A stretch of 64,000 bases of DNA, taken from assembly GCF_900696045.1 (NCBI RefSeq), contig NZ_LR216287.1, positions 2,585,854-2,649,853 of the forward strand. Reading direction: 5' to 3'. The notes below the pieces were generated by a model. It was given only the letters and a program-made list of their open reading frames with translations. It did no database searches and had not been told where the DNA came from. Shown here one piece after another: positions 44,336-46,554 of this stretch. Numbering within the stretch: position 1 is the first letter of the stretch; each line of letters opens with the position of its first letter. This DNA comes from Candidatus Nitrosocosmicus franklandus (GTDB lineage Archaea > Thermoproteota > Nitrososphaeria > Nitrososphaerales > Nitrososphaeraceae). The translations under genes were made by a program, and so were the position numbers.

Positions 44336-45406
44336 TTAATTGGGATTTATTATAGCTCGTCCTATTATTTTTCCATTTTTCAAATCCTCCAACGCTTCGT
44401 TAACTTGATCAAGTGAATATCTTTTGTCTAATACGGTTTTTACCTTTCCCTGAGAAGCCAAGTTAACTAGCTCCGTTAAATCCGAAAACGTTCCTGTATA
44501 TGCTCCAGTAAGCGTATATCCTCTTAAAGGAATCATCGGCAAATTTAGTTCCATCGATCCTCCAAACAAACCCACCATAATCATTTTTCCTCTTTTCCTC
44601 AGCATATTAAATGAATTAATTGAAGTAATGTTATTATTTACAAAGTCAATGACAACATCAGTACCAGCACCGTTCGTAAGTGCCTTTACCTCTTTGACTA
44701 TATCTGATTTTTCCTTACTGTTGATGACGGTGTCCGCACCCAATTTTCTTGCCTCAGACAATTTTTGATCATTTACATCAATGACTGTAATATTTGAATC
44801 ACAGATTGCTTTTGCAATTTGAACTGCCATCAAGCCTAATCCGCCTGCTCCGACGATTACTATGTTATGATCTTTCTCAAGTCCTTGTGCAGGTTTGGCC
44901 TTCTTTACCGCGTTATATGCAGTGAGCCCAGAACAAGCAAGTGATGAAGCTGAATCAAATTGCAGATTACTTAATTTTATAACATATTTTGAATCTGGAA
45001 CCAATACAAATTGCGCATATCCGCCATTTTGATAAATTCCCAAAGTTTTGGGTGAGTCACACAGGTTTTGTTCTCCAGATAAGCAAGCAGGACAGGATCC
45101 TTCTCCCAACCATGGGTAAACGAGCACGTTATCTCCAACTTGAACGTTGCTAACCTCATTCCCGACTTCTTCAATCTCGCCTGATATTTCATGTCCTGGA
45201 ATGAGCGGAAACTTTACACCTCTATCCTCAACCTTCATGAATACACCTTTAGGTCCTGCATAGCCTCCCTCCCACAAATGAAGATCACTGTGACAAACTC
45301 CAGACGCAATAACCTTAACTAATACTTGTTTTCCTTCGGGTTTAGGATCCTTGATATCATTAATTTCTAACGGTTGGTTTGTTTTAATTATTTGAGCCCC
45401 TTTCAT
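44336..45406 (-). CDS. Zinc-dependent alcohol dehydrogenase
   Basis: This medium-chain dehydrogenase has 356 residues from the ATG at 45406. An upstream in-frame ATG (45454) would add 16 residues unlike the family. Catalytic zinc site: GVCHSDLHLW (Cys), GHEISGEIEEVG (His-Glu). Structural zinc: CPACLSGEQNLC. The NAD(P) loop IVGAGGLGLMAVQIAKAI lies near residue 185. It oxidises or reduces an alcohol/aldehyde pair; the substrate is not assignable. The 3' end lies 29 bases past the tRNA-Tyr gene. The promoter region is shared with the C/D-box sRNA on the other strand. Confidence 0.9.
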   Translation of the reverse strand: MKGAQIIKTNQPLEINDIKDPKPEGKQVLVKVIASGVCHSDLHLWEGGYAGPKGVFMKVEDRGVKFPLIPGHEISGEIEEVGNEVSNVQVGDNVLVYPWLGEGSCPACLSGEQNLCDSPKTLGIYQNGGYAQFVLVPDSKYVIKLSNLQFDSASSLACSGLTAYNAVKKAKPAQGLEKDHNIVIVGAGGLGLMAVQIAKAICDSNITVIDVNDQKLSEARKLGADTVINSKEKSDIVKEVKALTNGAGTDVVIDFVNNNITSINSFNMLRKRGKMIMVGLFGGSMELNLPMIPLRGYTLTGAYTGTFSDLTELVNLASQGKVKTVLDKRYSLDQVNEALEDLKNGKIIGRAIINPN

Positions 45407-45470
45407 ACAAAACCCATAGTTAACATGTTTAATTATCTTTGCTAACCGTAACAAAATTTTGGTTAAAAAG

Positions 45471-45480
45471 AATATATAAT
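45471..45480. promoter_or_regulatory. TATA-like element between adh and the C/D-box sRNA
   Basis: AATATATAAT is AT-palindromic enough to act in either direction. It lies about 25-30 bases before the 5' end of the sRNA (plus strand) and about 65 bases before the adh ATG (minus strand). It fits the sRNA best. Confidence 0.4.
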
Positions 45481-45499
45481 TTGTGATAGTAGCTAGCCT

Positions 45500-45572
45500 G
45501 ATGTCGATGATGACGACGAAGAGCCGTCTGATAGTATAACACCGTGACGAAGATTATGAGTACTGAGGCATC
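45500..45572 (+). ncRNA. C/D-box small guide RNA, predicted to guide methylation of tRNA-Met C34
   Basis: All four boxes are present in order. Box C is ATGATGA (45507-45513), D' is CTGA (45528-45531), C' is GTGACGA (45544-45550) and D is CTGA (45563-45566). The terminal stem GATGTC (45500-45505) pairs with GGCATC (45567-45572), including one G-U pair. Guides are 14 nt before D' and 12 nt before D; the D'-C' spacer is 12 nt. The D guide is complementary to TACTCATAATCT, which contains CTCATAA, the loop of a CAT-anticodon tRNA-Met. Base five upstream of box D pairs with C34, a site known to be methylated by such RNAs in Haloferax. The D' target is unknown. Archaeal L7Ae, Nop5 and fibrillarin would be the partners. 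Confidence 0.82.
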
Positions 45573-45789: not shown

Positions 45790-46554
45790 ATGAATTCCAC
45801 ACAACGGTATCTACTATCATCCATTTATTGTAATAACCTATCGTTAGAAATCTTGCAAGAAAATAACGACAATGATTCTAAAGGAAATGAAGATTCTATT
45901 TCGATTTCTACTTCTGCTTCTCCTGCCCCTGCCACGCGTGCCGAAATGCCATTTCTTTCCTATTTGTCTAGGAAGTTGGAATTTGATTCAACATTGTTTG
46001 AAAATGAACTGCTTAACCTTGAAAAAGAAAAACTCATTGAAATAAAAAAAAATAAACAAATAGGAAGATCTACCATAAACAAGGAAGATGAAGTCTTTTT
46101 AACAAAAAGGGGTAGAGCCGAAATAAAAGTAGTTCTGGTAGGTGGTGTCTTTGATCTTCTTCATGCTGGTCATATTCATACCCTCAAGGCGGCTAAATTA
46201 TTGGGCGATGTTCTCATTATAGTAGTGGCAACTGATGCTACTGTTAGCAATTTAAGAAGTAATCGCAAAATATTTCACAATGAAAACAGTAGGTTAGAAT
46301 TGGTTTCTTCAATAAGGTTTGTAGATAAGGCCATCATAGGCAGAAAAACGTCAATATACGATACTGTATCGTTTGTGAGGCCAGACATTATTGCTCTGGG
46401 ATATGACCAATCTCATGACGTCAAATCAATGAAAAAAAATTGTCTGGAAAGGGGAATAGATGTAGAAGTTGTCAGACTCTCCTCTCCGATCCCTGAGTTG
46501 AAGAGTTCGGCGATTAAGAGCGAACTTGGAAGCTCTTTTTATGATTTACAATGA
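45790..46554 (+). CDS. ribL: FAD synthase (RibL-type) with N-terminal winged-helix-like extension
   Basis: This 254-residue protein has a nucleotidyltransferase domain from about 113 onward: VVLVGGVFDLLHAGHIHTLKAAKLLGD with the HxGH motif, VVATD, and a C-terminal VVRLSSPIPELKSSAIKSEL near the end. Archaeal RibL transfers AMP (or CMP) to FMN to give FAD. The first 110 residues are not part of the enzyme. RYLLSSIYCNNLSLEIL plus FLSYLSRKLEFDSTLFENEL and LTKRGRAEIK look like a winged helix interrupted by a Ser/Pro-rich stretch. The gene is convergent with riboflavin kinase, the preceding step, 11 bases apart. Confidence 0.87.
   Translation: MNSTQRYLLSSIYCNNLSLEILQENNDNDSKGNEDSISISTSASPAPATRAEMPFLSYLSRKLEFDSTLFENELLNLEKEKLIEIKKNKQIGRSTINKEDEVFLTKRGRAEIKVVLVGGVFDLLHAGHIHTLKAAKLLGDVLIIVVATDATVSNLRSNRKIFHNENSRLELVSSIRFVDKAIIGRKTSIYDTVSFVRPDIIALGYDQSHDVKSMKKNCLERGIDVEVVRLSSPIPELKSSAIKSELGSSFYDLQ

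Follow-up and report, generated by a model that had tools for sequence, protein, structure and literature searches.

The window, 64,000 nucleotides of the Candidatus Nitrosocosmicus franklandus genome (2,836,447 bases in a single contig), contains a complete box C/D sRNA gene at positions 45500-45572 of the forward strand, 73 bases from stem to stem by direct reading. It is very probably a dual-guide RNA transcribed from its own promoter, with wobble cytidine C34 of elongator tRNA-Met as the predicted target of its D guide and C2510 of 23S rRNA as that of its D′ guide. The sRNA is, as judged from the genomes compared, new and widely conserved, and the C/D guide mechanism that it would use is already known.

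Gene architecture and conservation

The gene is intergenic, with a reverse-strand ORF (44336-45454) on one side and a forward ORF (45790-46554) on the other, and its features are as follows.

45465..45482, +, TATA-box-like promoter element AAAAAGAATATATAATTT, with its centre some 24 nt before the sRNA
45500..45572, +, whole box C/D sRNA gene, from boxes, stem, conservation and pattern scan
45500..45505, +, terminal stem 5′ arm GATGTC, two-sided changes keeping four of six pairs
45507..45513, +, box C ATGATGA, exact RUGAUGA consensus, with ATGA columns invariant in the alignment
45514..45527, +, D′ guide region CGACGAAGAGCCGT, 14 nt
45518..45526, +, D′ guide core GAAGAGCCG, complement of 23S rRNA CGGCUCUUC, N+5 being G45523 opposite C2510
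45528..45531, +, box D′ CTGA, from direct reading and alignment
45532..45543, +, spacer, 12 nt
45544..45550, +, box C′ GTGACGA, one change from RUGAUGA, TGATGA in many relatives
45551..45562, +, D guide AGATTATGAGTA, 12 nt, complement of elongator tRNA-Met A31-C40, N+5 being G45558 opposite C34
45563..45566, +, box D CTGA, ATGA or TTGA in Nitrosopumilaceae
45567..45572, +, terminal stem 3′ arm GGCATC, six pairs with the 5′ arm, one of them G-U

The preliminary description of this DNA had listed boxes C, D′, C′ and D, the 12-nt spacer and the six-pair terminal stem, and all of these were confirmed by direct reading. The boxes stand in the order and at the spacing usual for archaeal box C/D sRNAs, a covarying stem of six pairs joins C and D, and both guides (about 10-12 nt is usual) place N+5 on a stable RNA, with 10 pairs to tRNA-Met and nine to 23S rRNA. 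Through a scan of both strands of the window, the four-box C/D pattern was found to fit positions 45500-45572 only.

By DNA search, the sRNA was present in all 14 genus relatives searched, which gave 15 genus genomes with the source. A covariance model built from it matched 313 of 400 genomes of the class, and a pattern search found both guide cores on one RNA in 249 of the 400, while the reversed-pattern control columns were 0. In the alignment of relatives the boxes and guides are almost invariant and the spacer and flanks variable. The terminal stem showed 15 cells with two-sided change, involving four of the six pairs, and none of 500 shuffles was as high. Together with the covariation between rRNA and guide given below, this conservation and stem covariation place the sRNA beyond chance. 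Judging from these searches, the ammonia-oxidising archaea and related organisms that carry it number in the hundreds. Upstream, a AAAAGAATATATTAATT-like block is kept in 15/15 genus sequences with variable adjacent bases, consistent with a promoter of its own.

In the Nitrosopumilaceae orthologues L128-L139, L157-L162 and L323, box D is ATGA or TTGA instead of CTGA, and guide and stem are retained. Two assemblies carried two sRNA copies each (L145 and L156 in G094; L157 and L158 in G314), which may be true duplicates or assembly artefacts.

The D guide, elongator tRNA-Met and its intron

Targets were searched in a pool of 23S rRNA, 16S rRNA with its first part absent, and 34 tRNAs, collected with Rfam RF00005 and patterns, so that some tRNAs are missing from it. 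The D guide forms 10 contiguous Watson-Crick pairs with A31-C40 of the CAT tRNA L004, with N+5 on C34. This supports the earlier proposal that the D guide is aimed at C34 of elongator tRNA-Met. That proposal had demanded pairing of at least 10 of the 12 guide bases with a tRNA-Met, and the threshold was just passed, with all 10 contiguous; it had also marked position 30 as uncertain, and this position is indeed unpaired in Nitrosocosmicus, as is position 41. Across 22 genomes compared, 9-12 of the 12 guide positions pair with tRNA-Met. The tRNA match alone is modest evidence, because 1.3% of the 12-mers of the window are complementary over 10 contiguous bases to some part of the recovered rRNA and tRNA.

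Three CAT tRNAs were found in the genome. L324 has three G-C pairs and A1-U72, features that mark it as the initiator tRNA. L004 has a GCCGGGG acceptor, tRNAs of its type often carry an intron, and from acceptor-stem features and known sequences we read it as elongator tRNA-Met. L003 and its orthologues have a GGGCCC acceptor stem close to that of tRNA-Ile(GAT), GGGCCGA; this is as in archaeal tRNA-Ile2, and L003 is presumed to be tRNA-Ile2. If L004 were really tRNA-Ile2, the guide would act on a cytidine that becomes agmatidine. The presence of three CAT tRNAs, and an L004 anticodon stem (TTCGA/TCGAA) equal to that of the genome's tRNA-Ile(GAT), would agree with such an assignment, but the acceptor stems, the frequent intron and the separate initiator make it very improbable.

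Two other candidates for the D guide were rejected. The pairing with L003 is weaker (8 contiguous, 7 Watson-Crick). An intron of tRNA-Asn gives an 11-pair match, slightly better here than tRNA-Met, but it is taken as chance since it is not kept across the genus. In the tRNA-Asn genes of Nitrosocosmicus (L023, L284-L296) a noncanonical intron stands ahead of the anticodon stem; it is present genus-wide and drifts in sequence.

The reading of L004 as the target connects the guide with the intron of tRNA-Met. The elongator tRNA-Met genes of Nitrosopumilaceae are interrupted at 30/31 by an intron that ends directly before A31, and the unspliced precursor reads UACUCAUAAUCU in 10 of 11 genomes compared. 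The guides of these 11 genomes pair with their own precursors at 12/12 positions in six and at 11/12 in five. The tRNA-Met gene of Nitrosocosmicus is without intron, and its D guide AGATTATGAGTA is the exact 12-nt complement of the Nitrosopumilaceae precursor UACUCAUAAUCU. The mismatches at 30 and 41 can thus be explained by a guide fitting the intron-containing ancestral target; they look like a memory of that target, and an intron-containing pre-tRNA was probably what the tRNA guide first evolved to match. Among the intron-bearing tRNA-Met genes (L263, L265, L267, L280, L325-L330) the 30/31 site is noncanonical, and most introns end in ...GGCAAU.

The unpaired guide ends also suit a different explanation, that only the D′ guide for 23S C2510 works in Nitrosocosmicus and the tRNA guide is a relic since the intron loss and stem change of tRNA-Met; in some families, moreover, the D′ guide is kept beside a different D guide. 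However, GATTATGAGT is invariant in 15/15 genus sequences, which would not be expected of a relic, and 10 contiguous pairs fall within the usual archaeal guide length of 10-12 nt (PMC7994747). In certain genera of the family without the intron (G160, G022) N+1 has changed to C, which pairs with G30, so that related genera have regained this pair. We regard a relic as improbable, and prefer a functional tRNA guide. One observation counts against this preferred reading: in a few genera (L050, L058, L059, L146, L147, L151, L153) the tRNA guide is separated from box D by one additional nucleotide, by which N+5 would move from C34 to U33.

The D′ guide and 23S rRNA

The preliminary description had recognised the D′ guide but left its target unknown. 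The guide itself was confirmed, and pairing and covariation now point to C2510 of 23S rRNA as its target. It forms nine contiguous Watson-Crick pairs with 23S CGGCUCUUC, with N+5 on C2510, at a site beside the peptidyl transferase centre that comes straight after U2506 of the peptidyl transferase ring. The number C2510 follows E. coli numbering; the site lies 42 nt before A-loop U2552 in the Nitrosocosmicus sequence. The target sequence is identical in the two 23S rRNA gene copies, at G000:C1:2698318 (+) and G000:C1:393-412 (-).

The 23S target reads GGCUUUUCC in 24/24 Nitrosopumilaceae genomes with a match and GGCUCUUCC in 26/26 others, and the sRNA guide reads GAAAAGCC in nearly all Nitrosopumilaceae and GAAGAGCC in nearly all others. 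The Nitrosopumilaceae D′ guide is GGAAAAGCC, in which G is changed to A exactly where the rRNA changes from C to U. This is a two-sided change, and it may represent a single evolutionary event. Other matches of the D′ guide were rejected: the longest, 12 pairs with G-U included, falls beyond the 23S gene on its downstream side, and those that follow are rich in G-U pairs.

Archaeal C/D RNAs have been suggested to serve as chaperones (PMC7994747), so the RNA might act mainly by chaperone or antisense pairing, without methylation. This seems hardly credible here, because the boxes, the guide length and the N+5 registers on both arms are those of a methylation guide, and both predicted nucleotides have human C/D guides (PMC6601510, PMC12288042). 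Methylation guidance by both arms is the reading followed below.

Related RNAs and predicted function

No Rfam family was matched by the sRNA at gathering score. The sub-threshold matches were all C/D RNAs, including SNORD49 (RF00277, 19.7 bits against a gathering score of 37) and sR-tMet (RF02163, 15.6 bits against 50). The sRNA shares with sR-tMet a guide aimed at C34 of elongator tRNA-Met, and with SNORD49 a D′ guide for the equivalent of 28S C4456, as judged by complementarity and covariation. Counted from A-loop U2552, which is 42 nt away, 28S C4456 and C2510 are taken to be equivalent.

Haloferax sR-tMet (RF02163) and the Pyrococcus sR49 guide (PMC2584109) likewise place their D guide on C34 of elongator tRNA-Met. 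In the halophile RNA, intron sequence is reported to be used in the pairing (PMC2584109), a likeness seen in Nitrosopumilaceae. Unlike sR-tMet, the Nitrosopumilaceae intron is at 30/31 and the second guide is aimed at 23S rRNA C2510. RNAs of Altiarchaeota, Methanofastidiosa, Thermococci and Diapherotrites have the same C′-TTATGAG-box D arrangement at the tRNA-Met anticodon loop, but their D′ guides are unrelated to the C2510 guide. For Pyrobaculum, a review describes tRNA-targeting sRNAs whose second guide is an orphan (PMC7994747).

Human SNORD49, listed for 28S C4456 in H90 (PMC12288042), has the guide GGAAGUGCCGUC ahead of box D′, in a register identical to that of the archaeal D′ guide. 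It differs in being eukaryotic and without a tRNA guide, and since the rRNA dictates what the guides must look like, their likeness does not show common descent. Cm34 of human elongator tRNA-Met(CAT) is directed by SNORD97 and SCARNA97; these are separate RNAs, for which a 28S C4456 guide is not described (PMC6601510). In the literature searched, with incomplete coverage, no description of thaumarchaeal C/D RNAs was found, in agreement with the earlier statement that no such example of a Cm34 guide was known.

Outside the class the two guides are mostly on different RNAs, and the tRNA-Met guide stands on unrelated backbones in many other archaeal phyla; a Bathyarchaeota record (L212) carries both. 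In another class of the phylum (family f25; L304-L313, L316, L317) the C2510 D′ guide is kept and the D guides are highly variable. Within the class, some families keep the D′ guide with a D guide other than the tRNA guide, which is absent from the RNA. When D guides of lineages without the tRNA guide were scanned against rRNA, a clear match was found only in G027 (family f4, L054), with 9 pairs to 23S ACCUCGAUGU, which adjoins the D′ site on its upstream side; there both guides of the RNA would be aimed at the peptidyl transferase centre. From this distribution, each arm appears to evolve on its own, and having both on one RNA is typical of most of the sampled class.

We infer the following course. 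The sRNA would be transcribed from its own promoter, and L7Ae, Nop5 and fibrillarin, whose participation is assumed, would assemble on the C/D kink-turn and the C′/D′ kink-loop. The D guide would pair with the tRNA-Met anticodon arm, in Nitrosocosmicus on an intronless tRNA despite two terminal mismatches, and the D′ guide with 23S rRNA just past the peptidyl transferase ring. If the RNA works as C/D guides are known to (PMC7994747), the modifications expected from it are Cm34 in elongator tRNA-Met and Cm2510 in 23S rRNA. Cm34 has been argued to restrict C34 to AUG (PMC7668247), and the methylation should favour AUG over AUA reading.

More tentatively, and with some doubt, one RNP might modify translation at its decoding end (tRNA-Met C34) and also at its catalytic end (23S C2510), with selection holding both together over most Nitrososphaeria; in intron-bearing lineages it might act best on the unspliced pre-tRNA, methylation being ordered before splicing.

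The thaumarchaea thus gain a C/D RNA with two precise predicted targets, one of them found for an orphan guide through the covariation of guide and target. In human the rRNA site and the tRNA site each have a snoRNA of their own; one archaeal RNA would serve both, and the guide seems to record tRNA intron history, since the unspliced pre-tRNA of its relatives fits it better than the intronless tRNA of its own genome.
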